Source: a gamma proteobacterium symbiont of Ctena orbiculata (GTDB lineage: Bacteria; Pseudomonadota; Gammaproteobacteria; Chromatiales; Chromatiaceae). From it: a DNA stretch of 64,000 nucleotides. Below the pieces are notes generated by a model. It was not told the DNA's origin, did not search any database, and saw nothing but the letters and a program-made list of their open reading frames with translations. How positions within the stretch are numbered: the first letter of the stretch is position 1; every line of letters starts with the position of its first letter. Positions 30,397-49,406 of the stretch are shown here, piece by piece. The stretch lies in contig QBVC01000031.1 in the NCBI GenBank assembly GCA_003058495.1, positions 1 through 64,000 of the forward strand, read 5' to 3'. The position numbers and the translations under genes are program-made.

Positions 30397-30440
30397 ACGT
30401 GTTTCTACGTATTTACCCTATTCACGGTCAGTTCTAACGT
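30397..30440 (+). promoter_or_regulatory. shared palindrome promoter A (mtoX)
   Basis: Core ACGTGTTTCTACGT (30397-30410), then ATTTACC, a 17-bp spacer and -10 TAACGT (30435-30440). The same arrangement, and most of the sequence to TCTAACGTTT, recurs at 43177-43220. The site sits where a class II activator would contact RNA polymerase. The mtoX leader would be about 105 nt. Confidence 0.8.
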
Positions 30441-30466
30441 TTACTTTAAAGCCCAGGTTATTAGAG

Positions 30467-30480
30467 ATTAAGCGCTTAAT
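30467..30480. promoter_or_regulatory. 14-bp perfect palindrome in the mtoX leader
   Basis: ATTAAGCGCTTAAT lies about 20 bp after the predicted start of transcription. Its symmetry and position suit a repressor operator. No binding protein can be named. Confidence 0.45.
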
Positions 30481-30552
30481 GTTGGGTGAGGGCAATAATC
30501 AGTAAGTCCTTCACTCTATCAATATGTTCACAGTATCCGTGAGGAATAAAAT

Positions 30553-31932
30553 ATGCATTTTCCACTTTTCAAAAAATTCACCAGAACCAAAATGGTGGCA
30601 TCGCTCGCGACCATGGTCTACACGGCTCTCCTGTCAACGCCGGCGATAGCTGACGAGACCTGCATGTCACCCTACATGGCCAAGATCGTGGGACAGGAGG
30701 ATTTTGTCTACGTCTGGACCCTGGGAGTCGAGGGTGTGGGCGACGGTCAGGACAAGCTGGTTACCGTGGATGTCAACCCGAAGTCCAAGCACTACGGCAG
30801 GGTAATCGACAGCCTTTCGGTCGGCGGACGCAACGAGGCCCACCATTCCGGTTTCACCGATGACCGGCGCTATTTGTGGGCCGGCGGATTGGATACCAAC
30901 AAGCTGTTCATCTTCGATGTGCACAGCGATCCCGCCAAGCCCAAGCTGCACAAGGTGATCACCGACTTCGTTGCCAAGAGCGGCGGCGTGGTCGGACCCC
31001 ATACCACCTATGCGCTGCCGGGGCGGATGATGATCACCGGTCTCTCCAACAACAAGGACCACGGCGGCCGCACCGCATTGGTCGAATATACCAATGAGGG
31101 CGAGTACATCGCCACCCATTGGATGCCGACCGATGCAAATCTGCAAGGCGCCAAGAAAGGCGGCAAGCTCGCGGACGGTTACGGCTACGATGTGCGCGCC
31201 CTGCCGCGGCGGAATGTCATGGTCACCTCGTCCTTTACGGGCTGGTCCAACTATATGATGGACTTCGGCAAGATGCTGCAGGACAAGGAGGCGATGAAGC
31301 GCTTCGGTAACACGGTGGTGGTCTGGGACCTGCACACCCGCAAGCCCAAGAAGGTGCTGGATGTTCCCGGAGCCCCTCTTGAAATCCGCTGTGCCTGGCA
31401 GCCCAACCACAACTGGTGCCTGACCACCACCGCCCTGACCTCCAAGGTCTGGATGATCTACGAGGACGAATCGGGCGAGTGGCATGCCAAGACCGTCGCG
31501 GATATCGGCGATCCGTCCAAGGTACCGCTCCCCGTGGACTTCTCCATCATGTCCGACGACTCAGGCTTTTTCGTCAATACCTTCATGGACGGCAAATCCC
31601 GCTACTTCGACCTGAGCGATCCGCATAACCCGAAACAGGTCTACGAGACCGTGATTGGCGCCCAGGTGAACATGGTCTCCGGCAGTTGGGACGGCAAGCG
31701 CCAATACTACACCAGCTCTTTGCTCGCCAACTGGGACAAGAAGGGCAAAGATGACGAGCAGTTCTTCCGGGCCTACCACTGGGACGGCAAGAAGCTGGTG
31801 AAACAGTTCGAGATCGACTTTTACAAGGAGAAACTGGGGCGTTCCCATCAGATGCGCTTTGGCGCCTACTCGCTCTATGCCAAGAGCAGGGACAGGCAGA
31901 TAGAAGGGAGTGCCGTGGCTGCCACGGAGTAA
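30553..31932 (+). CDS. mtoX: methanethiol oxidase, selenium-binding-protein 56 family
   Basis: Protein of 459 residues of the SBP56 family. The signal peptide ends AIA-DE (about residue 33), so the enzyme is periplasmic. Family landmarks include NEAHHSGFTDDRRYLWAGG, GPHTTYALPGRMMITGLSN, VDFSIMSDDSGFFV and GRSHQMRFG near the end; the several histidines are candidate copper ligands. Bacterial MtoX oxidises methanethiol to formaldehyde, sulfide and hydrogen peroxide. Sco is divergent, a strong terminator follows, and the promoter carries the shared palindrome. Confidence 0.87.
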   Translation: MHFPLFKKFTRTKMVASLATMVYTALLSTPAIADETCMSPYMAKIVGQEDFVYVWTLGVEGVGDGQDKLVTVDVNPKSKHYGRVIDSLSVGGRNEAHHSGFTDDRRYLWAGGLDTNKLFIFDVHSDPAKPKLHKVITDFVAKSGGVVGPHTTYALPGRMMITGLSNNKDHGGRTALVEYTNEGEYIATHWMPTDANLQGAKKGGKLADGYGYDVRALPRRNVMVTSSFTGWSNYMMDFGKMLQDKEAMKRFGNTVVVWDLHTRKPKKVLDVPGAPLEIRCAWQPNHNWCLTTTALTSKVWMIYEDESGEWHAKTVADIGDPSKVPLPVDFSIMSDDSGFFVNTFMDGKSRYFDLSDPHNPKQVYETVIGAQVNMVSGSWDGKRQYYTSSLLANWDKKGKDDEQFFRAYHWDGKKLVKQFEIDFYKEKLGRSHQMRFGAYSLYAKSRDRQIEGSAVAATE

Positions 31933-31991
31933 GCCAGCCTTCCTGTCCGGGTTCTCCCGGACCATGAGCACTCAACCATCTCCTCTCTTAT

Positions 31992-32020
31992 CCCCCGGGA
32001 TATTTCCCGGGGGTCTTTGT
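31992..32020 (+). terminator. terminator after mtoX
   Basis: CCCCCGGGA / TCCCGGGGG stem with a four-base loop, followed by TCTTTGTTT, 60 bp after the mtoX stop. Confidence 0.9.
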
Positions 32021-32117
32021 TTCAAGCTTCCCTATCCATTCGGGAGTGAAGGCACGAAACAACTCACGCTGCCCCTGTTGCTGTTCAGTGGATCAGTCAT
32101 CTCCAGCAATGCCTTGA

Positions 32118-32351: not shown

Positions 32352-33548
32352 TCAGCGTTGCAGCCGGATATCCAACAGCCTCATTTTTCGGTAGAGGGTA
32401 TTGCGGCTCATATCCAATCTTGAGGCAACACGAGTGACGTTCCAGCGGGCGGACTTCAACTCGCGCAGCAACGCGTCGCGCTGGGCAATGTCCAGGGAAT
32501 TGTGGGAACTGGGATTCTGTGCCGGCATGACACTCGTACTGACCGCACTGAAGACCTCATCCGGCAGATCATCAAGATCAATCACCGCCTTGTCGGATAG
32601 ACCGATCAGGGCCCGCAGTACATTGCGCAATTGGCGGATGTTGCCAGGCCAGTTGTAGCCGTCGAGCGCATCCAGGGCCGTCTTGTTGATGCTGATCCTA
32701 TCGGGGCCCCCGGCCTCCTCCTCCAAAAGGTGCAGAATCAGCGCTCTGCGGTCCTCTCGATCACGGAGCGGGGGCATTTGCAGACTGATACCATTGAGAC
32801 GATAGTAGAGATCCTCGCGGAATCTACCCTCCTCCACCAGAAACCTCAGCTCCTCGTGCGTTGCGCTCATCAGGCGGATGTCCACTTCAACCGGGGTTTC
32901 TCCCCCCAGGGGTATGACCTCCCGCTCCTCCAGTACGCGCAACAGCCGGGCCTGCAGGTGTAGGGGCATATCGCCGATTTCGTCCAGAAACAGGGTGCCG
33001 CCGTTCGCCTGCACGATCTTTCCGCGGCAGCCGTCCTTGCAGGCGCCGGTAAAGGCGCCTGATCGATAGCCGAACAGTTCACTTTCGATCAGGCTTTCCG
33101 GCAGCGCAGCGCAGTTGACCGCAATCAGCGGCTTATCCGCACGGCTGCTGGAGAGGTGCGCCGCCTTGGCGAACAGGTCCTTGCCGGTGCCGGTCTCACC
33201 TTGCAGGATGAAGGGTATATCGCGTTCCAGCAGCTTCTTGGCGCGCTCCACGTTGAGTCTCATGCGGGTATCGCCAAATTCCAGTTGGTCCAACACCTGG
33301 CGTCCGTTCAATGCCCTATCGAGAACCCTTGGCTGGCGACAGGTCTTCAAGGGGTAGCCATTGTTCGGGTTAGGCAGCTTGAAATCGGCGGAAGAGCGCC
33401 TGCCTCGATCCACATCGCACCGCGCGGTCGCAAACCCGACCCGGCTTTGCATGGGACTCAGATCATCAATGGTCAGCGGGTAATCGCCGCTGTCAATCTT
33501 GACCGTTGCCATCCTGCTGAGCTGTTTCCCGCCTCTGCTGCTATCCAT
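32352..33548 (-). CDS. sigma54-dependent activator, AcoR-like but without GAF domain
   Basis: Transcriptional activator of about 398 residues. It has an AAA+ domain with Walker A GETGTGKD, the sigma54-contact loop GAFTGA, Walker B GTLFLDEIGD, and a C-terminal Fis-type HTH (WNVTRVASRLDMSRNTLYRK). The AAA+ part resembles AcoR-type regulators, but the usual GAF-containing N terminus is replaced by about 90 residues with no sensor I recognise. GTG at 33557 is an alternative start. I found no convincing -24/-12 promoter nearby, so its target is open. Confidence 0.87.
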   Translation of the reverse strand: MDSSRGGKQLSRMATVKIDSGDYPLTIDDLSPMQSRVGFATARCDVDRGRRSSADFKLPNPNNGYPLKTCRQPRVLDRALNGRQVLDQLEFGDTRMRLNVERAKKLLERDIPFILQGETGTGKDLFAKAAHLSSSRADKPLIAVNCAALPESLIESELFGYRSGAFTGACKDGCRGKIVQANGGTLFLDEIGDMPLHLQARLLRVLEEREVIPLGGETPVEVDIRLMSATHEELRFLVEEGRFREDLYYRLNGISLQMPPLRDREDRRALILHLLEEEAGGPDRISINKTALDALDGYNWPGNIRQLRNVLRALIGLSDKAVIDLDDLPDEVFSAVSTSVMPAQNPSSHNSLDIAQRDALLRELKSARWNVTRVASRLDMSRNTLYRKMRLLDIRLQR

Positions 33549-33754
33549 CCTACTCACACCTCTTCAGTGCCACTGTGCTTGGACAATATGGCGTCGGTAG
33601 TTATATTCTTCAATTGCCCGCAAGCCAACAATCACCATTTTTGAGTCTCGAAGCCAAGTCAAGTGAGATCGCTATTGGGATCTCCCTGTTTGGATTCCAC
33701 CTTGACGGGCTACTGAAACCCGGTTCCACTCCAGCCCGCCGGTAGAACCGGTCC

Positions 33755-35014
33755 TTAGTTGAAATTCCAGGTCAATGCGAATCCCGCATGCCAGGAGTAG
33801 GTCTCGGCATTGGTGTGGCCGCCGCCGGACAGACTGCCCGTACCGTAATCACGATCTTCGGCGAGCTGCCAGCCCACATGGGCGTCGAGATCCAGCCCGG
33901 GCGCGAGAAAATCCGTATAACCGATCCCGGCAGTCAGTCGGTGTTCGTAGATGACCTCCGCCTGGGTGGCCTGGATATACTGGGTGACCGCTTGATTCAG
34001 GGGAATAGGACCGATGTTGCTGAAGACTTGTTGAATTCCACCGATTGGACCGGTGGTACCCGTGTCCGTTGGATCCTCACCATAGCCGTAGCCAAGGCGG
34101 TATTTCCACTTTCCCCGGGTCAATTGGGCGCCCAGGGAGAACACGGTCTGATCATCATAGACGTCTTCCCAAAATTCCGCGGAGTCCCAGAACTTAAGGA
34201 TCAGATCCGCGGCCAACAACAGGTCTCCGCCCATCAGGCTGTTGTTTGCAATGCCGATGCCGATGTTGGCCGGTTGTTCAATGGTCGGACTCGCGTAGCT
34301 CGTCGCTGTAGTCTGCACCTGATTATCGAATGTGTGTTTAAGCTTCGTCTGATAGTAGGCGCCGATAGTGGTGGCGGGTCCCATGTCGTAGGTCGCGCCC
34401 AAGGTGGCCCGCAGACCGATATCATGGGTTGCCGCGGAAGTCGAAGACAGCCCAAGGTCCAGTTCCGCGAAACTGATGGTGGCCGCCGCTCCCAGGGATA
34501 GATCATTGCTGAGTTCATATCCAAGACCGGCGTTCACTCCCAGGATGATGAACTCGGCACCCGCTCCGAGGCTTCCGGGATCGGCCCGAAACTCGGCGCC
34601 GATACCGGATACCGCCGTCAATCCAAGTCCCAATGTAGCCGGCAGCCCCAGTCCACGCAGGTCCTGGGTGACACCAACATTGGGTACTGCAAAGATATCG
34701 GTGCCTGAGCTCTCGCTGAATGCCGTGCCGGTGACGCTGCCGTCGTGGGTCAGGTCCACTTCCGGCATATAGAAGGTCGCCCCGAAACTGAATTTCGTGC
34801 CCTTGAATTTGGACATGGTCGCCGGATTACCGAACACGGCCGAGGTAACATCTTGAGGCCGGGCCAGACTGGTACCTGCCATGCCCCCCGATGCGGGTGC
34901 CAGCGTATTGTGTAAATCGTAGCCGTGGGGACCCGCCACTGTGGTGGCGGAATAGATAACCCCCGCCACTAGAACAACCGATGTCAGCCGTTTCGCGCAA
35001 ATTGCTTTATTCAT
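33755..35014 (-). CDS. OmpP1/FadL-family outer-membrane transporter
   Basis: Outer-membrane barrel of 419 residues with a signal peptide ending TVA-GP, the FadL-type N-terminal hatch (ASGGMAGTSLARPQDVTSAVFGNPATM), alternating beta strands and a final aromatic-Asn end (LTWNFN). FadL proteins admit hydrophobic compounds such as fatty acids and aromatic hydrocarbons. The gene lies downstream of a 44-residue ORF and of palindrome promoter B. Uptake of the monooxygenase substrate is the natural inference. An ATG at 35026 is an alternative start. Confidence 0.87.
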   Translation of the reverse strand: MNKAICAKRLTSVVLVAGVIYSATTVAGPHGYDLHNTLAPASGGMAGTSLARPQDVTSAVFGNPATMSKFKGTKFSFGATFYMPEVDLTHDGSVTGTAFSESSGTDIFAVPNVGVTQDLRGLGLPATLGLGLTAVSGIGAEFRADPGSLGAGAEFIILGVNAGLGYELSNDLSLGAAATISFAELDLGLSSTSAATHDIGLRATLGATYDMGPATTIGAYYQTKLKHTFDNQVQTTATSYASPTIEQPANIGIGIANNSLMGGDLLLAADLILKFWDSAEFWEDVYDDQTVFSLGAQLTRGKWKYRLGYGYGEDPTDTGTTGPIGGIQQVFSNIGPIPLNQAVTQYIQATQAEVIYEHRLTAGIGYTDFLAPGLDLDAHVGWQLAEDRDYGTGSLSGGGHTNAETYSWHAGFALTWNFN

Positions 35015-35094
35015 TATTCTACCCATTTAGTTGATGAAAGGTCGTTCGGGTTAAGCCGTTTGTGCGTCTGCGGCCGGGTTGATCCGGCCTGGTG

Positions 35095-35229
35095 TCATTT
35101 GCAATCCACTCTACTCGGCTCCCGGGGGTTGATAGCCAAGACCGCGCAATGTGACTCGATGATATCGGTTAAACGATTCAGTTGATCATCAGTGCTTGTA
35201 TGGGCATATTTGACAGACTTACGAAACAT
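35095..35229 (-). CDS. 44-residue small protein upstream of fadL-like gene
   Basis: Short ORF beginning MFRKSVKYAHTSTDDQLNRL and ending SRVDCK, with a near-perfect GGAGGAGG eight bases before the ATG. It is charged, has two cysteines and no membrane segment. It is the first ORF after palindrome promoter B and precedes the FadL-like gene by 80 bp; a GGCCGG-type hairpin lies between them. It might be a leader peptide or a true small protein. I recognise no family. Confidence 0.55.
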   Translation of the reverse strand: MFRKSVKYAHTSTDDQLNRLTDIIESHCAVLAINPREPSRVDCK

Positions 35230-35319
35230 CGGTTATGCCTCCTCCAGAAACTGGAATGCATCGCATTGTCGACATTCCAGATAGATTGGATAACGGTCTT
35301 GAACTACCGCTACTTAGAT

Positions 35320-35363
35320 ACTCTAGGAGTTCCGATCTAAAGCCGGAATACGCATAACTACGT
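35320..35363 (-). promoter_or_regulatory. shared palindrome promoter B (small ORF-fadL)
   Basis: On the minus strand the core is ACGTAGTTATGCGT (35350-35363), followed by 24 nt and a TAGAGT -10 (35320-35325). Geometry equals that of promoters A, E and F. Confidence 0.7.
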
Positions 35364-35478: not shown

Positions 35479-36441
35479 CTATCTTGTGATGGAACTGGAT
35501 ATACCGTCTGTTTTCATATCAACGGTGCCCAGTCGAGATTTAGCTTTGGCTATCCGCTCATCCTCGTCTGGCTCTTCTGCCCTATCATGATCCTTACCGG
35601 TATCGATCGGTACTTCGATCACGGATGTATCCGTTGTTTCTCCCTGCTTGTCATGAAGCTCAGCACTACCGGTTAGACCAAGAACGGTGTCCTTGTCGCG
35701 TTGATCCTTGATTTGCTCGAAGAAAGAGTATTCCCCGCCAGTCACGACCAGCGAGGTTTCGTTCAGTTCGTTGGCGAGCTGTTGCACGCTGCGCACCACA
35801 CTTACAAGCCTCTCACCAGACCTGGTGATTGAATAGATATTACTTGCCTTCGATTCTTTCATGCTGCTGCGTAACTCCGCCACCGTGCCGTCCAACTCGG
35901 CAATCCTGTCCTTGAGTCCTTCACGTTCAGTATTCAGTTTGGACAAGCGGTTTTGCATATGCATTAGTTCATCGGCATGTAATACCTTGATTTCATCAAT
36001 CCTTCGATCCTGTTCCGCCTTCAATTCGTCAATGTTGGATCTGTTGATGGAAGCAAATTCATTGATCAGCGTACTGTGTTCCTGTTGCAGCCGCTTGATT
36101 TCACCAGCATGATGCCCATTCATGGCGTCTATCAACAACTTGTGATCCTGCTTGAGCTGATCGATCTGAGATACATTTGTTTTACGAAGATTTTCTATTT
36201 CGTCAATACACGCTTTTTTTATTGACTGTATTTCTTTCTCTTGTATTGAACGCAAGCTTTCAAGCTCTGTCTTTGCTGTCTGGTCTGCCTTCACCAGCGC
36301 CGACACCTTGCGCCTGTACTCTTTGGATTTGCCAATGGCGTGGCCTATCCAAAGGCAGACCAAGGTCAATACCGCACCGATCGTCATGACGGGTCCAGTC
36401 ATCAATTGTGAAAAATCGGCAAACAAGGTTGAAATATCCAT
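35479..36441 (-). CDS. membrane-anchored coiled-coil protein
   Basis: Protein of 320 residues: one membrane helix near 15-38, then about 150 residues of nearly continuous charged coiled coil with alternating K/E/Q (for example residues 50-200) and an acidic, low-complexity C-terminal tail. I use the ATG at 36441, which has AGAGGA nine bases upstream; a longer frame to 36573 has no support. It has its own palindrome promoter, so it belongs to the shared regulon. Scaffolding or membrane organisation is possible; I recognise no family. Confidence 0.7.
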   Translation of the reverse strand: MDISTLFADFSQLMTGPVMTIGAVLTLVCLWIGHAIGKSKEYRRKVSALVKADQTAKTELESLRSIQEKEIQSIKKACIDEIENLRKTNVSQIDQLKQDHKLLIDAMNGHHAGEIKRLQQEHSTLINEFASINRSNIDELKAEQDRRIDEIKVLHADELMHMQNRLSKLNTEREGLKDRIAELDGTVAELRSSMKESKASNIYSITRSGERLVSVVRSVQQLANELNETSLVVTGGEYSFFEQIKDQRDKDTVLGLTGSAELHDKQGETTDTSVIEVPIDTGKDHDRAEEPDEDERIAKAKSRLGTVDMKTDGISSSITR

Positions 36442-36588
36442 TCCGCATATCCTCTGATGATGAAACTGCTGTTTGATCCTCAAGGAGGCTTTCGGCACAC
36501 CCACTGGCAACTGCCTATATCTGATCTTGATGCGGATGATATTCCGCCGGCTGGATCTGATTTCGACTGTCACTATCGGGTCTCTTTT

Positions 36589-36633
36589 AATCTATCGCTC
36601 TCCCGGCTCAGGGATCCATACGTAGAACTACGC
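36589..36633 (-). promoter_or_regulatory. shared palindrome promoter C (coiled-coil gene)
   Basis: Minus-strand core GCGTAGTTCTACGT (36620-36633), 25 nt, then TAGATT (36589-36594). It sits in the 220-bp gap between the NorD-like gene and the coiled-coil gene. Confidence 0.7.
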
Positions 36634-36661: not shown

Positions 36662-38785
36662 TCATGTGGTGAGAACACGATAGATATCCGCTATGCGGGT
36701 TGGAAGTTTGTTGACCCGGTCTATGACCGTGAAGTTGGATCCACCGTACATATGCGGCAGATAATCGCGTGCTGTGCTATCGATGGTGATGCAATAGGGG
36801 TGTATCCCCAGACCTTTTATCTCGTTAAGCGCTTTGCGGGTGTCTTCAATACCATAAGCCCCTCGATAGCCATCGATGTCGTCGGGTCGACCGTCGGACA
36901 GGGTGATCAGCAGGCGGGTGCGTGCCTCGACCCTGCCAAGCCTTGTACCAAGATGACGGATAGCCGTACCTAAACGAGTGTAATCCTGGGGCTGGATACC
37001 CTGGATGCGATTCCGGACTCCGTCACCATAGCACTCGTCAAAGTCCTTTATATGATACGAACGGCAGCACCGGTTCCCCCTCCCAGAAAAGCCATAGATA
37101 GCGTATCGGTCACCGAGCAGCTCCAACACTTCACACAACAGGATCAGTGCTTCACGCTCGACCTGGTTGATCCAACCCGCGGTTGAAGCGCTCATGTCGA
37201 TCATGAACATGACTGCCACGTTACGCTCCCGCAACTGGCGGCGGACGAAGAGTCGGTCGCTGCCCTGATGGCCGGCATGGGTATCGGCCCATGCCTCGAC
37301 GGCGGCATCGATATCGATGTCATCCCCATAGGGTTCGCGTCTCAACACCTGGCTTTCCTGGCGCATGGCCTCGAAACTGCGCCTGAGCTGTTTAAGCAAT
37401 CCACGATACTTTTGTTGGGTTTGCGCCACCAGCGCACCCGCTACCGGCTTGACGGTCGATTCCCGCATAAGGCACCAGTCCCTGCGGTATCGTCGTCGCG
37501 ACTGGTCCCATTCATCATAGCTGAAGCATGGTTCACCGGTTTTTATGGGGGATTCAGCATCTTCGCCTGCATCCGCCAGCTCCCCTGACCGATCGGTATA
37601 TTCGTTGGCGGGGTCGTAATCAGGCAGCTCTCCCTGCTCCGCCGGGAGGGAATTAAATTCTGCGGATATCTCCGCCTCCACAACATCAGCTGGTCGTGCC
37701 GCCCGGTTTTCGAGCTGTTCGCTATCGAAGTAACGGTTTGACTTTGATGCCAATCCGCTCACTCCAGGATCGCCACGAGTCTCTTCCGTCCCCGTCTCCC
37801 GGTTCTTGCGCAGGCCCTTCCCGGTGACACCGGTCACCCGATCCAGACACAGTTGACCCTGATAGATCGCCGCCTGCGGAATCATGCCAAGCGGATAGAT
37901 TTGCCGCAAACAAGCAAGGCTAGTTCCAACATCGGATTCCGGGCGTTGTAATATCTCGCCCGCATCCTGCCACCGATAATCGGTATCACCGCTTGCGGAC
38001 TTCAGTTTCCCCATTTCCCGTGCCAGACCAGGCAGTTCACGACTGATGCAGGCGTCGAGACGCATGGTTTCAAGACCATGAAACAAGTTGATCGCGCGCT
38101 CAGTATCGGGGAAACGCTGCAGCGCTTTGGCAATATCAATATCCCAGGTGCCATAGGTGATCTGGGCCCATTGATGGATCATCAGTGCCTTGTAGAGCTG
38201 GAAGTTCTCTTCTCGTGTAGCAAAGTGGTCGATGCGCCCAGGCAGAAAAAACGACCGGGTATCGGTATAGGGCCGATCCGCAGACAGGAGCTTGTATGCC
38301 TTCCCACTCAGCCCATGGAGTAAGCCATTGAGCAACCGTTCTATTTCAGGCAAAGTGACACAACCGCTCTGATCGGCGGGCTGCAGACCACTGAATGACT
38401 TCAGGTAAGCCAGGGCAGTGTCGAGGTCAGCATCGGCATAAGCATCCATGAGGCCATCGACCCAGGATGGCCAGACAGCGTCATCCAGCTTGGCAAGTTT
38501 CGGTGTCGCTAGATGGCAGAATTGATAGGCCAGCTCCGCAGAACTGAGTGATATCCTTTCGACACTGCCGATGAATCTTTCCTGTTCGACCAAGGGGAAG
38601 CCGGCGAGCGCCCTTGCCGGTTGCAACAGGCTGCGCCGGCGATTCATCACGTCTTCGAGAATAAGCTCCAGACGCAACTGCAATTCGCGTTCCTGCATGC
38701 CGCCGAATCGGGGAGTGGTTCGAGGCCTGGTTGGGATCACCTGTCGCGATTTTCGCGGTTTTTTTTTCAGCAAACCGAGAACCAT
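36662..38785 (-). CDS. NorD/CbbO-like VWA-domain protein
   Basis: Protein of 707 residues with a long helical N-terminal region (about 30-480) and a C-terminal von Willebrand A domain (about 515-700) with MIDAS motif D-M-S-A-S in FMIDMSASTAGW, then LGTAIRHLG and TLSDGRPDD. This is the NorD/CbbO type, which acts with a MoxR-family AAA+ ATPase (NorQ/CbbQ) to activate or insert metal in an enzyme. No MoxR gene is in the window. The palindrome promoter D and its neighbours suggest the client is the membrane monooxygenase, which is inference. Confidence 0.85.
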   Translation of the reverse strand: MVLGLLKKKPRKSRQVIPTRPRTTPRFGGMQERELQLRLELILEDVMNRRRSLLQPARALAGFPLVEQERFIGSVERISLSSAELAYQFCHLATPKLAKLDDAVWPSWVDGLMDAYADADLDTALAYLKSFSGLQPADQSGCVTLPEIERLLNGLLHGLSGKAYKLLSADRPYTDTRSFFLPGRIDHFATREENFQLYKALMIHQWAQITYGTWDIDIAKALQRFPDTERAINLFHGLETMRLDACISRELPGLAREMGKLKSASGDTDYRWQDAGEILQRPESDVGTSLACLRQIYPLGMIPQAAIYQGQLCLDRVTGVTGKGLRKNRETGTEETRGDPGVSGLASKSNRYFDSEQLENRAARPADVVEAEISAEFNSLPAEQGELPDYDPANEYTDRSGELADAGEDAESPIKTGEPCFSYDEWDQSRRRYRRDWCLMRESTVKPVAGALVAQTQQKYRGLLKQLRRSFEAMRQESQVLRREPYGDDIDIDAAVEAWADTHAGHQGSDRLFVRRQLRERNVAVMFMIDMSASTAGWINQVEREALILLCEVLELLGDRYAIYGFSGRGNRCCRSYHIKDFDECYGDGVRNRIQGIQPQDYTRLGTAIRHLGTRLGRVEARTRLLITLSDGRPDDIDGYRGAYGIEDTRKALNEIKGLGIHPYCITIDSTARDYLPHMYGGSNFTVIDRVNKLPTRIADIYRVLTT

Positions 38786-38816: not shown

Positions 38817-38901
38817 ATTCTAGCAACCGGCAGCGACTGGTAGCTATACGTGTTAATACGTACTGTGCGTTACGCCTGCATGACATACAGTATTAACATG
38901 T
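38817..38901. promoter_or_regulatory. shared palindrome promoter D, apparently divergent
   Basis: Core ACGTGTTAATACGT (38848-38861). Towards the NorD-like gene it is followed by 25 nt and TAGAAT (38817-38822). Towards the flavoprotein-kinase operon it is followed by 24 nt and TACAGT (38886-38891), the same geometry in the other direction. A weaker second palindrome, CAGTATTAACATGT (38888-38901), lies 40 bp away over that second -10. From 38902 to 39163 I see nothing else. Confidence 0.7.
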
Positions 38902-40327: not shown

Positions 40328-40330
40328 GCT

Positions 40331-42391: not shown

Positions 42392-42995
42392 AATTCAGAC
42401 TCTATACATAGTTGATGATGAAGAACCAGTACGCCGCGCATTGATCATGTTGGCCAGAGCTGAAGGTCTTCAATCAAAGCCCTATGCCTCTGCGCGGGCC
42501 TTTCTCGATGCAATGGAAAAGGCAGGTCCGGGATGTCTGCTGCTTGATATCTGTATGCCTGACATGTCAGGACTTGAACTTCAAGAGGAATTGAAAAAAC
42601 GCGCTTGTCCGTTGCCTGTCATTATATTGACTGGTCATGGTGACGTACCCACCGCTGTGCGCGCGATGCAGGCCGGTGCACAGGACTTTATCGAAAAACC
42701 CTTCGACAGTGAAGACCTGATGGAGCGGGTGCACAGATGCCTGGACAATGAAGCTCGAGGCAGGCGGTTGGATCAACTGCGCCAGGAGGCATCCAACCGA
42801 ATCACCCGCTTGACGCCCAGAGAATCCCAGATCATGGAACTTCTGGTCGCCGGCCGTCGGAACAAAGAGATTGCGCAGGAACTCTTCATAAGCTTCAGGA
42901 CCGTCGAACTGCATCGGGCAAAGATCATGGAAAAGCTCGAGACAAAATCCTTTTCAGATGTGGTTCGAATGTCCCTGTTACACAATATGGGTTAG
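42384..42995 (+). CDS. FixJ/NarL-type response regulator
   Basis: Response regulator of 203 residues with receiver (phospho-acceptor D55 in CLLLDICMPD, ILTGHGD, IEKPFD) and a C-terminal LuxR-type HTH (LTPRESQIMELLVAGRRNKE, VELHRAKIMEKL). Its ATG overlaps the kinase stop. Relatives such as FixJ, TodT and StyR bind palindromes just upstream of sigma70-type promoters, which is the geometry seen at the six shared sites. I infer that it binds them. Confidence 0.9.
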   Translation: MSEIQTLYIVDDEEPVRRALIMLARAEGLQSKPYASARAFLDAMEKAGPGCLLLDICMPDMSGLELQEELKKRACPLPVIILTGHGDVPTAVRAMQAGAQDFIEKPFDSEDLMERVHRCLDNEARGRRLDQLRQEASNRITRLTPRESQIMELLVAGRRNKEIAQELFISFRTVELHRAKIMEKLETKSFSDVVRMSLLHNMG

Positions 42996-43176: not shown

Positions 43177-43220
43177 ACGTGTTAATACGTATTTACCGTA
43201 TAGAGGGTCGGATCTAACGT
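43177..43220 (+). promoter_or_regulatory. shared palindrome promoter E (hemoglobin-ferredoxin-GST-reductase operon)
   Basis: Core ACGTGTTAATACGT (43177-43190), ATTTACC, 17 bp, and TAACGT (43215-43220). It is the closest match to promoter A of mtoX; likeness extends across about 50 bp. The leader to the first ATG is about 135 nt. Confidence 0.8.
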
Positions 43221-43363
43221 TTTAATTAACGCCCGCACCTTATTCTCAGTCGGTTCCGGGTAGGATTATGACAAGCGTTCACGACATTGATTCGCGGCTC
43301 TCGCGTGTATCGGTTTCCTGGGCGCGCTTACTTCAACATTTCTTAAACTCGGAGGCAACAACA

Positions 43364-43732
43364 ATGAGCGAAGCTGAAGCCACGCTTTATACTCGTTTGG
43401 GAGGTAAGGATGGTATAGCTGCCATCGTGGATGATATCTGGGACAACCATGTCAGCAATCCCGCTATCAAACAACGCTATGCGGCAAGCGATCCGGAAAA
43501 TGTAAAGCGGCTTGTCCGGGAATTTTTTGGCGCTGGAATCGGCGGGCCGGAAACCTACACCGGCCAGGACATGCTGACCGCTCACAAGGGAATGAACATC
43601 AGCGACAAGGAGTTTGTGGCCGTCGTCGACGATGTGTTGGCCGCTCTGGACAAGAATGCAGTGGGGCAGCGGGAAAGGGACGAGGTACTCTGTATCCTCT
43701 ACTCGATGAAGGGCGACATTGTCCACGTCTAG
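43364..43732 (+). CDS. group 1 truncated hemoglobin
   Basis: Heme protein of 122 residues: TLYTRLGGKDGIAAIVDDIW at the start, then GGPETYTGQDMLTAHKGMNIS, where the histidine in AHKGM is the proximal ligand. TrHbN-type globins bind oxygen or detoxify nitric oxide. I start at 43364, after CGGAGG; the longer frame to 43268 is untranslated leader. As first gene of a monooxygenase electron-transfer operon it may supply oxygen or protect the enzyme, which is inference. Confidence 0.88.
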   Translation: MSEAEATLYTRLGGKDGIAAIVDDIWDNHVSNPAIKQRYAASDPENVKRLVREFFGAGIGGPETYTGQDMLTAHKGMNISDKEFVAVVDDVLAALDKNAVGQRERDEVLCILYSMKGDIVHV

Positions 43733-43791
43733 CGATGATCTGTTTCACCTCATCTCACTACCCATAGAACAAATATATACGGAGTCGATCC

Positions 43792-43974
43792 ATGAGCAAA
43801 ATCAGTTGGGACGAGAAGATATGTCAGCACGCAGGAAACTGCGTCAACGGCCTTCCCCAGGTGTTCAAAGTCGAGAACAACCAATTCGTTATCAAAGAGA
43901 ATGCCGCTGGGGTGGAGGAGATCAAAGCAGTGATTAAGAGCTGCCCTTCGGGGGCACTCAAATACAACGATTGA
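43792..43974 (+). CDS. divergent mono-cluster ferredoxin (Fer4_19-like)
   Basis: Protein of 60 residues with three cysteines: C11 and C17 in CQHAGNC, and one in SCPSGAL; H13 may be a fourth ligand. The pattern resembles the PF06902 single-cluster ferredoxins, not rubredoxin. It could carry electrons from the reductase two genes downstream to the membrane monooxygenase. Confidence 0.75.
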   Translation: MSKISWDEKICQHAGNCVNGLPQVFKVENNQFVIKENAAGVEEIKAVIKSCPSGALKYND

Positions 43975-44021
43975 GGCAGCGTTCACGAACGCTGCCCAAC
44001 CTACAAGGAGACGAGAATACC

Positions 44022-44708
44022 ATGTTAGGCGACCACCTGAACACGAAAATGCAACTGTTCGGCATAGCAGGAGATCCGGACACCCTGAAGTGCCTGATGA
44101 CGGCCGGCGAGAAAGGCGTGGATATCGAGAGTCGTGCCATCGGCGAATCCGCGCTGTCAGCCGATTCTCAGGAGTTCCGTTCCATGTCCCCATTCGGCAC
44201 CACCCCCTGCCTCAAGGACGTGGATTTCATCCTTTGCGGAACCCTGACCATCATGTCCTATCTCAACGACAAGGGGTTTGGACCGTCCCTGATCCCGCGT
44301 AACGGCGTGGCCCGGGCATTACATTACCAGTGGTCGGAAATGGCCTCACAACATATGGCACCCCAAGTGGCAAAGCTTGCATCGGGCGAAGCGGATGACA
44401 GCACGACAGCAACGTTGGCAGCCCTGTTCGATGCCCTGGACAAGCAATTGCAGAACAAGCGCCACCGTGGCGAGTTTATAGTAGGTGAGTTTTCACTTGC
44501 CGATATCCACTGGGCACCCTATATACATTGTTGTGAACTTGTCGACATGGGCGACCTGATTACAAACCGCAGTGCGATCAGTGACTGGTGGGAAAAGGTC
44601 AAGACGCATAAGAGCACAAGCAAGGAAAACTACCTGGCGTACAACGTTCTGCCCACATTGGCGGAAATCAAATCCAACAAGATCCGTTCTGTCACGATCA
44701 ACACCTAG
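44022..44708 (+). CDS. GST-like protein 1
   Basis: Protein of 228 residues with a thioredoxin-like N-terminal half (FGIAGDPDTLKCLMTAGEKG, SPFGTTPCL) and a helical GST C-terminal half (VGEFSLADIHWAPYIH). The usual glutathione-binding E/D-S pair after the cis-proline region is CGT here. It is related to two other GST-like genes at 46-48 kb. Starts at ATG 44022, 12 bases after AAGGAG. Conjugation of a reactive oxidation product, as by the isoprene-pathway GSTs, is one possibility. Confidence 0.75.
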   Translation: MLGDHLNTKMQLFGIAGDPDTLKCLMTAGEKGVDIESRAIGESALSADSQEFRSMSPFGTTPCLKDVDFILCGTLTIMSYLNDKGFGPSLIPRNGVARALHYQWSEMASQHMAPQVAKLASGEADDSTTATLAALFDALDKQLQNKRHRGEFIVGEFSLADIHWAPYIHCCELVDMGDLITNRSAISDWWEKVKTHKSTSKENYLAYNVLPTLAEIKSNKIRSVTINT

Positions 44709-44791
44709 CAAGATCCAGCCTTCCTTCAATATGCCAGGGATGGTTATTGAAGAGACGAAAATCCACAACTCATTGTAAGCGAGACGCCACT

Positions 44792-45877
44792 ATGTTCGGT
44801 CTCTTCGGCAAAGGCAAAAAAGACAACCAGGCCTTAATCCAACCATCTGGTGACAGAATGACGGTAAAGGCAGGTGATAACCTGTTGAAGGCTGGATTGT
44901 CCGCAGGATTGAGCTGGCCCCATGATTGCAGAGTCGGCAGTTGCGGCAGTTGCAAGTGTCGGCTAATCAAGGGCAAGGTTAAGGAGCTTTCGGATTTCGC
45001 CTATGTCCTCGACGGCGAAGAACTCCAGAGCGGGATGATCCTTGCCTGTCAATCGCTGCTTAAAAGCGATGTCGAGGTTGAGGTGCAATTGAATCCCTCC
45101 GATCATGACGCCGCGGTAGTCAGCACTACACCAGGCGTGCTCGAGTCGACCCGCATGCTCACCCATGACATCATGGAACTGAAGGTATCGCTCGACAAGC
45201 CACTACGGGAGCAGGGAGACCACTATATGGCCGGGCAGTATGCCGATATCAGCTTTCCTGGCATCAGTCATCCCAGAGCCTATTCCTTCGCAACCGCTCC
45301 GGAGAATGATAAAAGGAACGAGCTCACTTTTTTTATCCGCAAGGTCCCCAACGGGGAATTGACCGGGTGGCTTTTCGAACAAGACCGCACCGGCAGTCCG
45401 GTAACCGTCAGCGGTCCCTATGGTTCCTTCTGGTTGCGTGAGGGCGATGGCCCCGTGGTGTGCATAGCCGGCGGCAGCGGAATGAGCTCCATCAAGGCGC
45501 TGCTGGAACATGCCGCCAATGTGGGTTGCGAGCGGGACGTAATCTACCTGTTCGGCGCCCGAACCCAGGCCGACCTCTACTGTCTCGATGAGATGCACGC
45601 ACTGGAATCCCGATGGAATTCGGGACGCAGCCTGCGGTTTGTACCGGTACTCTCAGAAGAGCCTGATGGGAGCGATTGGCCAGGACTGAGGGGCATGGTG
45701 ACCGAGCACATTGTCAACCAGCTGAAAGACTGGACAAGCGCCCAGGCATACTTATGCGGCCCGCCACCGATGATCGATGCAGCGATGGATGTTCTGCGAA
45801 AACAGGGAATCTCCGACCAAGACATCCACTTCGACAAATTCCTTGACGCCAGCACCATACCGGGTGGAAGACATTAG
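44792..45877 (+). CDS. 2Fe-2S/FAD/NAD(P)H oxidoreductase, XylA/MmoC-like
   Basis: Reductase of 361 residues with an N-terminal plant-type ferredoxin (CRVGSCGSCKC plus a later cysteine in ILACQS), an FAD-binding domain (RAYSFATAP) and a nucleotide-binding domain (GGSGMSSIKALLEH, LCGPPPMIDAAM). This is the XylA/MmoC layout that takes electrons from NAD(P)H to an oxygenase. No rubredoxin is present, so the monooxygenase here may be served in the XylM-XylA way. Last gene of its operon. Confidence 0.9.
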   Translation: MFGLFGKGKKDNQALIQPSGDRMTVKAGDNLLKAGLSAGLSWPHDCRVGSCGSCKCRLIKGKVKELSDFAYVLDGEELQSGMILACQSLLKSDVEVEVQLNPSDHDAAVVSTTPGVLESTRMLTHDIMELKVSLDKPLREQGDHYMAGQYADISFPGISHPRAYSFATAPENDKRNELTFFIRKVPNGELTGWLFEQDRTGSPVTVSGPYGSFWLREGDGPVVCIAGGSGMSSIKALLEHAANVGCERDVIYLFGARTQADLYCLDEMHALESRWNSGRSLRFVPVLSEEPDGSDWPGLRGMVTEHIVNQLKDWTSAQAYLCGPPPMIDAAMDVLRKQGISDQDIHFDKFLDASTIPGGRH

Positions 45878-45912
45878 AGGCGCAAGAAAGACATGACGCA
45901 GTGGATGTATGA

Positions 45913-46125
45913 TCAGAACAAATGGGTTAGGTTGTTTTCGGTCATTAAACTGTACTGTAGGAGCCTAAGCTCGACCTCGGACATCTGTTGGTAGTTCTCG
46001 CTTTCCGGCGGGGCAATCCATCCTTCTACCAGTTGCAACGGCAAACCCAGCGCCTTGGCAACATCGGCACAACTTAGATCGAAGTTCTCCATAATCCTGA
46101 GCAACTCTCTGTTAGTCTGATTCAT
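45913..46125 (-). CDS. small helix-turn-helix protein
   Basis: Protein of 70 residues with one HTH (LSCADVAKALGLPLQLVEGW) and a following IAPPESENYQQMSE segment, as in small Cro-like proteins. GAGGG lies just upstream of the ATG. It is the last gene of the monooxygenase operon and might modulate it. Confidence 0.7.
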   Translation of the reverse strand: MNQTNRELLRIMENFDLSCADVAKALGLPLQLVEGWIAPPESENYQQMSEVELRLLQYSLMTENNLTHLF

Positions 46126-46183
46126 CGCGCCCTCGGGAAACTGGCGGCGAGCCCCGGCAGAGCCGGGGGAGGCCCGTTTGTAT

Positions 46184-46975
46184 TTAGAAGTCGTCTATCA
46201 CAACATCTTGCATTCGCTTGGCTTTGATATCATCCAAACTGGGCAGTAGATCGTAAGCAACAAGATTTTGACCGGAAAAGCTCTTCCGACTCTTGATCCG
46301 CTCCCACCACTGACTCATATTGGCGCGCTGCTGAACCAGATTCTGTTCGCCGGCCACGCATAACAGGTGAATATAAGAAGTCCAGTGGACATCGGCATAG
46401 GAATATTCGCCAACGATATACTCCTTGGTTGCCAACTGGGCATCAAGGGCATCCAAAGGCACGACCAGGGCCATCTTCGCAGCTTCAACCGCGACACTAT
46501 CCTCTTCAGTATCAGGATCGCTCATGGCATTCAGGACCCTTTGCGCCATTATGGTCTGTACATACGGCGCCACATTATCCCGGGCGATATCAATCCAGTA
46601 GTTCTGATGAGCCAGCACCTCGGCATTTCTTGGTGTCATGCGATTCCCAAGGCCTCTGCCTTCAATGAAACTGATGATTGCGAGATCGCCGGCCACTTTG
46701 TAGTGGGCCTCTTTCAACGCTGGCATGATTCCCATCGGGGAGATCTCATGGTAATCCTCTGAATTGTTTGCCCCTCGCGTTACATCCAATATACCTGACT
46801 CGACCTCAATGCCCTTCTCACCCGCAATAACCAGGGCTTTCAGCGTGTCAGCATCGCCGGGAAATCCCAACAACTGCATGACATACTGGGTTTTCTTGAG
46901 GTCGCCGGCGTTACCGTACCGCGAATCGGCATCCAAATTCCCAGCGCCGCTGCCAAATGCAAACAAATCTGCCAT
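46184..46975 (-). CDS. GST-like protein 2
   Basis: Protein of 263 residues of the same family as the other two: about 35 extra N-terminal residues, SPMGIMPAL, a GDLAI turn where glutathione binding normally needs an acid-serine pair, and GEYSYADVHWTSYIH in the C-terminal half. It lies 28 bp downstream of GST-like 3 in the same operon. Confidence 0.75.
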   Translation of the reverse strand: MADLFAFGSGAGNLDADSRYGNAGDLKKTQYVMQLLGFPGDADTLKALVIAGEKGIEVESGILDVTRGANNSEDYHEISPMGIMPALKEAHYKVAGDLAIISFIEGRGLGNRMTPRNAEVLAHQNYWIDIARDNVAPYVQTIMAQRVLNAMSDPDTEEDSVAVEAAKMALVVPLDALDAQLATKEYIVGEYSYADVHWTSYIHLLCVAGEQNLVQQRANMSQWWERIKSRKSFSGQNLVAYDLLPSLDDIKAKRMQDVVIDDF

Positions 46976-47003
46976 CTCTTATCCCTCCCGTCCGCTGTCT
47001 TCT

Positions 47004-47726
47004 TTAAGCAACGGATTTTAAGCGTTTATTACGAATTTCATCCAACGACGCCAAGTAGTCAAACGTGCGCTTACCGCCAACCTTGCTGATGCGGTGCTGC
47101 ACCCGATCGAACCAAGCCTTCACAGACCCTTTTCCGTCCAGTAAATCCTGGTGCCCGGCCATAACGCATAGATGGATACAGGCAGTCCAATGGATGTCGG
47201 CGAAAGAGTATTCGCCCACCAGGAACCGTCTACCGTCAGCCAGTGCCGCCTCTGCACAATCCAGGGCGCTGCTTATCTCGCCTCTGGCCGCCTCAACGGT
47301 ATTCTCGTTGGACTTGCTGGATGAAGCTTGACCCTGAGGAAGAAACGACTGTATGAGCAGATCCACATTGTTGTCGAGAAAGCGTCGTGCCAGATCGATC
47401 AGATAATTCTGCTCACCAAGAATCGATGCCTTTTTAGGATTAAGTGATCCACCCTGACCACGGATATCCAAATAGGCCAAAATGGCGGGGGCTCCACTGG
47501 TCAAAAAGCCACCTTCTCTCAGGCAGGGCAGTTTGCCAAAAGGCGATAGTTGACGATACTCGGGACCGTCGCAGGCACCTTCAGTGATATCCAGCAATTC
47601 AGACTCCAATCGGATATCCTTCTCGGCCGCCATCAGCAGGCATTTGTTGGTACTGAGGTCTGCGGGAAACCCCTTCAGCCTCATAGTGACATTTTCCTTT
47701 GATTTCTTGCTGCCGAAAATCCCCAT
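47004..47726 (-). CDS. GST-like protein 3
   Basis: Protein of 240 residues with a basic N-terminal start (GSKKSKEN), SPFGKLPCL, a GAPAI turn, and VGEYSFADIHWTACIH. It is clearly homologous to GST-like 1 and 2. The three share the FADIHW-type C-terminal motif and lack the canonical acid-serine. Confidence 0.75.
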   Translation of the reverse strand: MGIFGSKKSKENVTMRLKGFPADLSTNKCLLMAAEKDIRLESELLDITEGACDGPEYRQLSPFGKLPCLREGGFLTSGAPAILAYLDIRGQGGSLNPKKASILGEQNYLIDLARRFLDNNVDLLIQSFLPQGQASSSKSNENTVEAARGEISSALDCAEAALADGRRFLVGEYSFADIHWTACIHLCVMAGHQDLLDGKGSVKAWFDRVQHRISKVGGKRTFDYLASLDEIRNKRLKSVA

Positions 47727-47833
47727 TAGGCTCCTCCTCTCGTTTCATAGCTATCGGTTTTATGCATCCCGACCGGTGAGATTGCCATCATGACTCGATC
47801 GCAATCCGCACCGGCCGGACCAGCGCTTGCGTG

Positions 47834-48034
47834 TCACTCCCAGCGGAAAGGTTCTTCCTTCGCGATGGCGAAAAACATCCAAACGTCAACCAGGAGGATT
47901 GTGATCAAGGCGATAGAGGTTCCAAGCGCCCACAGCGGATCTGAGTGATGCTCACCTACGCCCAGTCGCAACAAACCCCACCCTGATGCGGCGGTAAACA
48001 GGAATACGGCCATTAATGCTTTATATGTTGCCAT
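47834..48034 (-). CDS. small two-helix membrane protein of the monooxygenase operon
   Basis: Protein of 66 residues with two membrane helices (about 4-22 and 34-54) joined by a short loop GVGEHHSDPLWA, which holds two histidines. GAGGATAAAGAA precedes the ATG at 48034; the in-frame start at 48055 would place the ribosome site inside the gene. Cotranscribed with the monooxygenase, so it may be an accessory subunit. I recognise no family. Confidence 0.7.
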   Translation of the reverse strand: MATYKALMAVFLFTAASGWGLLRLGVGEHHSDPLWALGTSIALITILLVDVWMFFAIAKEEPFRWE

Positions 48035-48100
48035 TTCTTTATCCTCATTAATCATTCAATAGTGGCCTTATGGCGCCGTACTGCAGCGGATCGGCTGACG

Positions 48101-49324
48101 TTAGGCCTGGCTCATATGGCCGCCCAGTTCATCCATGTCGTGCCAACCGGCCTTTGCGTTCATACGTCGAGCAATGCGCCGCTCTCCTTCTGAGGCCATT
48201 TCCGCGTCCCATTTCGCCAGGTGGGGTTTAATGAAACCCTCCCACATGGGTGGTACCAGGAGCAGAGAGAACATGGCGTAGTAACCTAGCCCCGTATCTG
48301 GTGACCCAACCTCCTCCAGCTCCCAGAAATGGGTCTCGCCGCGGTCGTGGTGGTCACCTTGGCGGCCAATTTCAATGAAGCCAAACTGAGTGAAGGGGGA
48401 CTCACCGACATCCCAGGAGTGGCGGTACTCGATGGGTTGGCCTTTTTCGCGAATAAGACCGTAGTGTTCGAGAAAATTGAGCACTTCCAGTTCAAAGCCT
48501 GAGATCACCCAGGTCAACAGCATTATGCCAAGTCCTTCCCAGCCGCCCGCGAACCAGAACAGAAACACAGTCGGCAGACTGATAAAGTAACCGCGAATCC
48601 AGCGGTTTGATGGAGAAAGGAAAGCCTTTCCGAGGCGTTTCAGCCGCTGTTGTTCCATCTTGTACAGAAACCGTGATTGGCCGAAGTGGGAGAGCAGATA
48701 GTGCTTGTAAATATTGCGGCCACGTGGACAGGTTGCCGGGTCATCCTCGTGAGCCAATTCCAGATGATGGTTGTAGACATGAGCATAACAGAAGTGAGCG
48801 ATTCCGCTCAGGCCCATGACCCAGCGTGACAAGGCAAAGGTCCAACCCTTGGTATGTGAAAGTTCGTGGCCAAACATGATACCCAGCCCCATGTACAGCG
48901 CGGCGGAAATGGCAGCGCCGATCAGGTCAACACCGGAAATACCGGTTTGTATGGTCAGGGCGGGCAGGGAAACACCTGCGATCTCTGTTGCGGCCATGAG
49001 CTCCATTGTCCCGATGGGCGCGCCGGAAACGTACTCATAGACGCGCCAAATGAGCGCCAGCTGCAATGCCACGAATACGGGATACTGCATGTACATCATT
49101 CCGTTCAACAGCCAGGGAATGCCGTTGAGTTCACCGTTCCTATCGGTGCCCGCGGGTTTTGCGCTCATGGGTGTCACGCTGGTTATCCAGTCCAGCGCGA
49201 TGGATGCTGCGAACATGGCAATACCAAGCCATACCCATGGACCGCCGACCACGATGCCGACCATTGTGGCGAAGATCAGAACCGGGGTAAGAAAGTATCT
49301 TAAATTGATTATCAATTTGCTCAT
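48101..49324 (-). CDS. divergent AlkB/XylM-type membrane diiron monooxygenase
   Basis: Integral membrane protein of 407 residues in the alkane hydroxylase/xylene monooxygenase superfamily. The histidine boxes are HELSH, a HVYNHHLELAHEDDPATC segment, LNFLEHYGLIR, and, in place of the usual LQRHSDHH, an unusual EIGRQGDHHDRGETHFWELE. The start at 49324 follows GGAGG; predicted transcription starts near 49356. Substrate is unknown; the divergent last box and lack of rubredoxin argue against a standard AlkB. Uptake and electron-transfer partners are under the same promoter type. Confidence 0.85.
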   Translation of the reverse strand: MSKLIINLRYFLTPVLIFATMVGIVVGGPWVWLGIAMFAASIALDWITSVTPMSAKPAGTDRNGELNGIPWLLNGMMYMQYPVFVALQLALIWRVYEYVSGAPIGTMELMAATEIAGVSLPALTIQTGISGVDLIGAAISAALYMGLGIMFGHELSHTKGWTFALSRWVMGLSGIAHFCYAHVYNHHLELAHEDDPATCPRGRNIYKHYLLSHFGQSRFLYKMEQQRLKRLGKAFLSPSNRWIRGYFISLPTVFLFWFAGGWEGLGIMLLTWVISGFELEVLNFLEHYGLIREKGQPIEYRHSWDVGESPFTQFGFIEIGRQGDHHDRGETHFWELEEVGSPDTGLGYYAMFSLLLVPPMWEGFIKPHLAKWDAEMASEGERRIARRMNAKAGWHDMDELGGHMSQA

Positions 49325-49362
49325 CTGCTCTCCTCCAGATTTCAGTTGCTGGTACATTTCTA

Positions 49363-49406
49363 AATTTATTCAGGAGCATGGCCCACTCCAATACGTAGCA
49401 CTACGT
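49363..49406 (-). promoter_or_regulatory. shared palindrome promoter F (monooxygenase operon)
   Basis: Minus-strand core ACGTAGTGCTACGT (49393-49406), 24 nt, then TAAATT (49363-49368). A weaker related sequence, ACGTGTTTATTAAT, lies 70 bp upstream at 49463-49476. Confidence 0.75.

Follow-up and report, generated by a model that had tools for sequence, protein, structure and literature searches.

Promoter palindromes and a candidate FixJ-type activator at a putative methylated-sulfur locus of a Ctena orbiculata symbiont

The DNA analyzed here, called the window below, is a stretch of 64,000 nucleotides (nt) (contig QBVC01000031.1 of assembly GCA_003058495.1) from a gammaproteobacterial symbiont of Ctena orbiculata, whose genus we infer to be Candidatus Thiodiazotropha, symbionts of lucinid clams. 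Between positions 30397 and 49406 it carries six sites, A to F, at which an imperfect palindrome precedes a -10 box, together with genes for a methanethiol oxidase (MtoX), a FixJ-type regulator with its kinase and an AlkB-like membrane oxygenase. The genes of the locus are the following (coordinates, strand, product):

30553..31932, plus: mtoX, methanethiol oxidase (NCBIfam NF052453)
32352..33557, minus: sigma-54 activator-like protein (Pfam PF00158), located in the locus and at most a putative regulon member
33755..35026, minus: FadL/TodX-like outer-membrane protein (Pfam PF03349)
35095..35229, minus: small open reading frame (ORF) of 44 amino acids (aa) between site B and the FadL-like gene (open frame only)
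35479..36573, minus: coiled-coil protein (by eye; no Pfam match)
36662..38785, minus: NorD/CbbO-like von Willebrand factor A protein (Pfam VWA_2 below cut-off)
39164..40327, plus: acyl-CoA-dehydrogenase-like protein (Pfam PF02771, PF02770, PF00441)
40331..42391, plus: FixL-like PAS sensor histidine kinase (Pfam PAS, HisKA, HATPase_c; cytosolic by eye)
42384..42995, plus: FixJ-type response regulator, the candidate activator (Pfam Response_reg, GerE)
43268..45877, plus: globin, 4Fe-4S ferredoxin, glutathione S-transferase (GST)-like protein and Fer2/FAD/NAD reductase (Pfam)
45913..46125, minus: small helix-turn-helix (HTH)-like protein of 70 aa, the last of the AlkB gene row (judged by eye, without Pfam match; kept in relatives)
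46184..47726, minus: two further GST-like proteins (Pfam)
47834..48055, minus: small membrane-type protein of 73 aa (by eye; no Pfam match; kept beside AlkB)
48101..49357, minus: AlkB/XylM-like membrane oxygenase, candidate dimethylsulfide monooxygenase (Pfam PF00487; matches FtAlkB in sequence and fold)

A first-pass annotation of this DNA had placed 14-bp palindromes at 30397, 35350, 36620, 38848, 43177 and 49393, each 24 or 25 nt ahead of TAnnnT. All six are found there, with 24 nt in A, B, E and F and 25 nt in C and D. With their -10 boxes the sites read as follows:

30397..30440, plus: site A, toward mtoX; palindrome, spacer and -10 box TAACGT; no mismatch to the full pattern
35320..35363, minus: site B, toward the small ORF and the FadL-like gene; palindrome, -10 box TAGAGT; one mismatch
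36589..36633, minus: site C, toward the coiled-coil gene; palindrome, -10 box TAGATT, 25-nt gap; one mismatch
38817..38861, minus: site D leftward, toward the NorD-like gene; -10 box TAGAAT; no mismatch in the 16-mer
38848..38891, plus: site D rightward (D+), toward the acyl-CoA-dehydrogenase-like, kinase and FixJ-type genes; -10 box TACAGT; one mismatch to the full pattern
43177..43220, plus: site E, toward the globin operon; palindrome, -10 box TAACGT; no mismatch
49363..49406, minus: site F, toward the AlkB-like gene row; palindrome, -10 box TAAATT; no mismatch

All six sites match the 16-mer ACGTRNNNNYACGTAT with at most one mismatch. Read toward the gene, the consensus is ACGTR-N4-Y-ACGTAT, from which B and C each deviate once, and the gap from this form to the -10 box is 22 nt in A, B, E and F and 23 nt in C and D. 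Two features had escaped the first-pass annotation: a gene-proximal ACGTAT or GCGTAT is present in all six sites, and site D is bidirectional. Since its second match faces the genes of the sensor kinase and the FixJ-type regulator, autoregulation through site D is likely. The likeness of A and E, previously put at about 50 bp, is confirmed and extends further, over about 80 aligned columns. Site F lies immediately 5' of the AlkB-like gene, and a ribosome-site-like GGAGGAG precedes an ATG that lies near 49324, 11 codons into the listed frame; a transcription start near 49356 would fit this. By arithmetic the palindrome centre falls at about -43, and FixJ/NarL-type activators are commonly placed near -43.

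The whole source genome (4,527,148 bases, 4.53 Mb) was scanned for these elements, and chance was estimated with an order-2 model of the window or with base composition alone, in six simulation runs each. The exact 16-mer ACGTRNNNNYACGTAT occurs four times, always in the locus, while the simulated mean was 0.5 (order-2) or 2.8 (base composition). When one mismatch was allowed and both strands were counted, 17 matches were obtained, nine at the six sites and eight elsewhere. The latter are at background level (simulated 18 and 60), and after fetching their sequences TAnnnT was found at 22 or 23 nt in none of the eight, one having a box at 21. If the 16-mer was combined with N22 and TAnnnT at up to one mismatch, a search confined to the N22 form, all five matches in the genome fell into the locus (simulated 0.3 or 1 for the whole genome). 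An equal density of sites elsewhere, named beforehand as the outcome that would speak against a single activator, was thus looked for and is absent outside the locus.

Looser searches give a different picture, and they lend some colour to the idea of a repeated DNA element, or of matches by chance, with no role in regulation. With up to two mismatches, the 14-mer is no commoner than chance (37 found, 45 expected by shuffling), the 16-mer at two mismatches was likewise not enriched in the genome scan, and A and E look like copies of each other. Consequently, the site finding rests on the stricter motif form, and the loose counts were dropped as uninformative. However, the strict matches are confined to the locus, stand before genes and keep a fixed distance from TAnnnT. 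The columns that stay invariant in divergent relatives are those of the half-site and the -10 box, and conservation of the promoter geometry across families, which would decide against this idea, was found (see below). We consider a repeat or chance origin highly improbable.

The regulator encoded in the middle of the locus has, by Pfam, a receiver and a LuxR/GerE HTH domain. Its residues 7-200 align with FixJ (5xso), which was the best phmmer match in the PDB, followed by 1yio over nearly the full length; we take 5xso to be from Bradyrhizobium and 1yio to be StyR. With 229.5 bits it stays under the NCBIfam FixJ equivalog cut-off of 255, and we class it as FixJ-like, not as FixJ proper. Whether the kinase senses oxygen as FixL does was considered; its score is 217.8 bits, far under the NCBIfam FixL cut-off of 850. 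The HTH motif RTVELHR is invariant in all eight aligned regulators. StyS-StyR and TodS-TodT control hydrocarbon oxidation operons, recognize sites that differ in sequence from those described here and have larger kinases. The present system would resemble them in that a FixJ-type regulator drives an oxygenase pathway, and differs in comprising several dispersed units instead of one operon.

A further likeness is to the FixL-FixJ and LuxR/FixJ-type regulons of rhizobia and Rhodopseudomonas, which share the combination of a sensor kinase with a FixJ-type regulator and a similar palindrome. The FixJ consensus selected in vitro is GTAMGTAG (Ferrieres and Kahn, 2002, as quoted in PMC4999443), and a fixK promoter carries GTACGTAG (PMC13327599). 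Read toward its gene, site F is ACACGTAG-N2-CTACGTAT, the proximal arm of which (ATACGTAG on the opposite strand) agrees with the quoted GTAMGTAG at seven of eight positions, a likeness in sequence only. In contrast to FixL-FixJ, the pair described here scores under the curated cut-offs, its kinase seems to start with a domain that by eye looks like a receiver (no Pfam match), its presumed targets are a methyl-sulfur gene set and its gene row opens with an acyl-CoA-dehydrogenase-like gene. The latter stands 5' of the kinase and FixJ-type regulator genes in the window and in every fetched locus with the whole operon.

Among 21 congeners of the window, the promoter in full, searched as N22 with one mismatch allowed, is present in all four genomes that possess an ortholog of the FixJ-type regulator (72-76% identical), with three copies each, and in none of the 17 without it (Fisher 1.7e-4). 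The four positive congeners are not independent: G372 and G387 are identical in all three site sequences. In the fetched stretches of these congeners, G371 and G387 among them, the sites stand before the AlkB-like gene, before the globin operon and in the gap that separates FadL from the kinase operon, the AlkB site of G387 being on contig C77, outside the fetched stretches. Site B has a counterpart before FadL in G371, G372, G383, G387 and Thiohalocapsa, and site E has one before the globin gene in loci L112, L115, L117, L119, L121 and L144. Among the fetched congeners, only the window has the NorD-like gene, the coiled-coil gene and sites C and D inserted at the place between FadL and the kinase genes.

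Beyond what had been annotated before, the promoter is conserved outside the genus. We surveyed 79 AlkB-like loci, a few of them with little or no upstream DNA. TACGTAT was found upstream of the AlkB-like gene in 12 loci, two Methylophaga among them, and TAnnnT follows 22-23 nt on in 12/12; gaps of 20-24 were examined, the chance of a box at 22-23 being about 4.5% per locus. These rows are partly related and not independent, and L030 and L039 represent one genome. Where ACGTAT stands in another context (four further loci), TAnnnT was present once, at 24. In an alignment of the 12 loci with the window, the columns without variation are TACGTAT, on which the loci had been selected, and the T, A and T of the -10 box, which had played no part in the selection. 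G391, from another genus of the same family, has sites before AlkB and globin; a Thiohalocapsa genome has them before globin, before FadL adjoining the kinase operon and before AlkB; and in G397 and G398 the kinase operon has a site in front, followed by TAnnnT after 22 or 23 nt. Seven exact 16-mers were detected in the genomes of nine relatives (three in G394, one each in G395, G398, G396 and M. sulfidovorans). Two of those in G394 lie at AlkB and the globin operon, that of G395 at the globin operon, that of G398 before the kinase operon and that of G396 about 4 kb before AlkB. One-mismatch matches were not counted: in distant genomes they are mostly background (one each in G390, G247 and G185, one of three in G391), and in the nine relatives, each of which has several, a reversed control pattern gave equal or higher numbers. 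In three gammaproteobacterial metagenome-assembled genomes a second copy of the promoter element occurs in the AlkB cluster, just before a GST gene (L026 9629, L027 10668, L029 11886).

The sensor follows the promoter as well. In a hand-chosen set of 38 genomes, part of those behind the loci, a match to the N-terminal domain of the kinase with E of 1e-16 or better was obtained for 10 of the 12 with the site and for none of the 26 others (Fisher 1.4e-7), L089 being counted as site-less despite a two-mismatch match. At E 1e-6 three of the 26 were weakly matched (E 1e-7 to 3e-11; Fisher 3e-5). Both M. thiooxydans and M. sulfidovorans possess the orthologous operon, in which the acyl-CoA-dehydrogenase-like, kinase and FixJ genes are followed by two GST genes. 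Hence the earlier proposal of a single activator, with the FixJ-type protein as candidate, gains support from the co-occurrence of the promoter with regulator and sensor.

Several observations weigh against this regulatory reading. Methylophaga keeps only the proximal half-site and the -10 box, while the distal half diverges. Site-bearing genomes G396 and G424 lack a sensor match, and L089 has its two-mismatch match before AlkB, yet its genome, G449, has no sensor match. The third exact 16-mer of G394 lies elsewhere, and that of M. sulfidovorans is about 6 kb from AlkB, with no -10 box at 22 nt by eye. Many AlkB-like loci, such as L031, L035, L042, L044, L051, L060 and L062, have neither promoter nor sensor match; thus the AlkB-like family is not tied to this regulator. 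Finally, no palindrome (up to one mismatch in the two ACGT arms) was found within 400 bp before mtoX of G383 and G372. Since A and E also align outside the motif and mtoX of these two congeners lacks the palindrome, site A probably arose by copying of the E promoter, which put mtoX under this control here. In G372 and G387, mtoX follows a MetX-like alpha/beta hydrolase gene with a two-mismatch site upstream and TATTAT 22 nt on. A similar site accompanies this hydrolase gene in congeners (L112 18477-19526; L117 5671-6741), in Methylophaga the MetX-like gene precedes the kinase operon (L090 19003-20049), and in the window tblastn did not find it.

One might speculate that the sites bind the sigma-54 activator-like protein or the HTH-like protein of 70 aa instead, and that the FixJ-type pair controls something else. 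Both genes keep company with the sites: the former is present in all four site-bearing congeners, the latter in all four fetched AlkB stretches (G371, G383, G372, G391). However, the boxes are sigma-70-like TAnnnT at fixed spacing and the site resembles FixJ sites as published. Moreover, the sites persist in G391 and Thiohalocapsa, in the fetched stretches of which tblastn found no sigma-54 activator-like gene, and tblastn detected neither gene in the two Methylophaga loci, although a query of 70 aa can be missed. Such an alternative regulator appears unlikely to us; very probably, the six sites form one regulon under the kinase/FixJ-type pair. Thus the site finding is real, and its regulatory reading, built on sequence comparison, well supported.

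The genes behind these promoters point to the oxidation of methylated sulfur, a link that the first-pass annotation did not contain. The mtoX product scores 790.3 bits, above the NCBIfam MtoX equivalog cut-off of 650. In a survey of 369 genomes drawn from Gammaproteobacteria, the source genome included, the SBP56/MtoX family was present in all 12 genomes with an AlkB-like gene (E 1e-60 or better) and in 37 of 357 others (Fisher 8e-12); the genomes are not phylogenetically independent, and in G351, one of the 12, SBP56 is partial at a contig end. Eight loci (L075, L079, L080, L083, L085, L091, L094, L095) unite AlkB, ferredoxin, GST, reductase, FadL and mtoX. Methylophaga are restricted methylotrophs, and within this genus the AlkB-like gene and mtoX are present in the same two of 24 genomes, M. 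thiooxydans and M. sulfidovorans. Of six Methylophaga treated in PMC6548844, the same two are given as carrying mtoX. The source genome has a second SBP56-family gene (G000:C25:10189-11400, L132).

When M. thiooxydans grows on dimethylsulfide, expression of mtoX, of a porin and of a "fatty acid desaturase" is reported to rise (PMC6548844). This response resembles the present case in that an orthologous gene set lies nearby and that mtoX and the desaturase go up. It differs in that the authors, in the parts of their paper considered here, name no regulator and tie the desaturase to no attack on dimethylsulfide. In L090, mtoX lies about 8 kb from the AlkB-like gene (10004-11182) and encodes 467 aa, equal to MDMS009_211 with the 40-residue extension proposed in PMC6548844. 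Because of this agreement in length, the desaturase MDMS009_226 is probably the AlkB-like gene of L090; that the identity is no more than probable counts against the reading. The first dimethylsulfide enzyme of M. thiooxydans was reported as unidentified in 2019 (PMC6548844), and in 2022 the gene in Methylophaga was still called unidentified, with a methyltransferase being spoken of (PMC9563715). A review of 2026 lists DmoA, DdhA, DsoB and Tmm as dimethylsulfide consumers (PMC13360808). Literature searches, judged from titles and abstract beginnings, brought up no paper besides PMC6548844 that connects AlkB-like proteins or desaturases with an attack on dimethylsulfide. Other routes exist, since growth on dimethylsulfide in the absence of mtoX is reported for M. 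aminisulfidivorans (PMC6548844).

The AlkB-like protein itself matches FtAlkB in sequence and keeps most of the His motifs. Its AlphaFold model (predicted local distance difference test 80.7, predicted template-modelling score 0.83) has the AlkB fold, and with this model Foldseek gave E 7e-11 to AlkB-AlkG and template-modelling scores of 0.70-0.76 to 8f6t and 8sbb. The complete HxDHH motif, however, is absent: all 70 motif matches (L023-L101) read RQ[GA]DHH, while 8sbb has RHSDHH, and Q333 is invariant in 37/37 aligned AlkB-like sequences. The subfamily signature RQxDHHDRGETHF replaces the canonical motif, with one motif His changed to Gln in every copy found. With Gln at the place of this AlkB His, activity of the protein cannot be assumed. 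Known AlkB/XylM monooxygenases share with it the fold, most His motifs and separate ferredoxin and reductase genes, whereas Gln for the first His of HxDHH, low identity and the pairing with MtoX set it apart. Plasmid searches returned only distant AlkB/XylM proteins, at most 32.2% identical among the matches listed (20 of 50), and distant FixJ-like proteins. The NorD/CbbO-like protein is possibly a metal-insertion chaperone for the oxygenase. In Methylophaga and relatives, NorD-like genes and a MoxR/CbbQ ATPase adjoin AlkB (L090 6784-9692); tblastn with the Methylophaga MoxR/CbbQ partner gave no match in the window.

Given this fold, the regulon might serve short-chain alkanes or another hydrocarbon, with MtoX present for an unrelated reason, for example detoxification of sulfide or methanethiol. 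The FadL/TodX-type porin fits such a role too, as porins of this type accompany hydrocarbon operons. What makes it doubtful in our view is the constant company of SBP56/MtoX, in 12/12 AlkB-like genomes and side by side with the whole oxygenase set in eight loci, the restriction of the AlkB-like gene to the two of 24 Methylophaga genomes that have MtoX, and the low identity to AlkB/XylM of plasmids given above.

Taken together, we put at roughly 0.75 the probability that the FixLJ-like pair activates a methylated-sulfur regulon with the AlkB-like protein as candidate dimethylsulfide monooxygenase. The six sites would be class-II-type promoters of one locus-specific regulon and the pair in mid-locus (kinase 40331-42391, regulator 42384-42995) its switch. 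Upon phosphorylation, the regulator would bind as a dimer to the imperfect inverted repeat (about 18 bp, with its centre near -43) and recruit sigma-70 polymerase to TAnnnT, standing in for a -35 box. Site D would fire in both directions and thereby feed the regulator's own predicted operon. A small hydrophobic methylated sulfur compound may enter through the FadL-type pore. The AlkB-like oxygenase, together with ferredoxin, reductase and accessory globin and GST-like proteins, would hydroxylate a methyl group and release methanethiol and formaldehyde, and MtoX would oxidize the methanethiol. The overall route would thus lead from dimethylsulfide via methanethiol to formaldehyde and sulfide. 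Of the possible substrates we consider dimethylsulfide the likeliest, at slightly better than even odds; the step from dimethylsulfide to methanethiol is assigned to the AlkB-like protein from co-occurrence and published expression only (PMC6548844).

Among the neighbours of the locus, a short IS200-like (Y1_Tnp) transposase frame lies upstream at 28656-28991, and Rfam gave no match at gathering scores within the window.

In the ocean, dimethylsulfide ranks among the main sulfur gases of biological origin. The regulon links methanethiol oxidase to an AlkB-like oxygenase, its putative electron carriers and a sensor, both in a cultured dimethylsulfide grower and in an animal symbiont. We would go further only at even odds: the RQxDHHDRGETHF subfamily may be the missing dimethylsulfide monooxygenase of Methylophaga and many marine sulfur-oxidizing gammaproteobacteria, and the kinase/FixJ-type pair may be a switch that senses dimethylsulfide (or methanethiol or formaldehyde), its promoter code TACGTAT-N22/23-TAnnnT being kept across families, among them clam symbionts for which use of this gas is not known. 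In the Ca. Thiodiazotropha publications that were searched for terms, 'methanethiol' had no occurrence. Some lineages of this genus oxidize methanol and have formaldehyde pathways (PMC12172469), and for that reason they could use the formaldehyde released. The promoter code is usable as a marker in metagenomes, and the findings suggest that methylated sulfur may in part sustain some lucinid symbionts.

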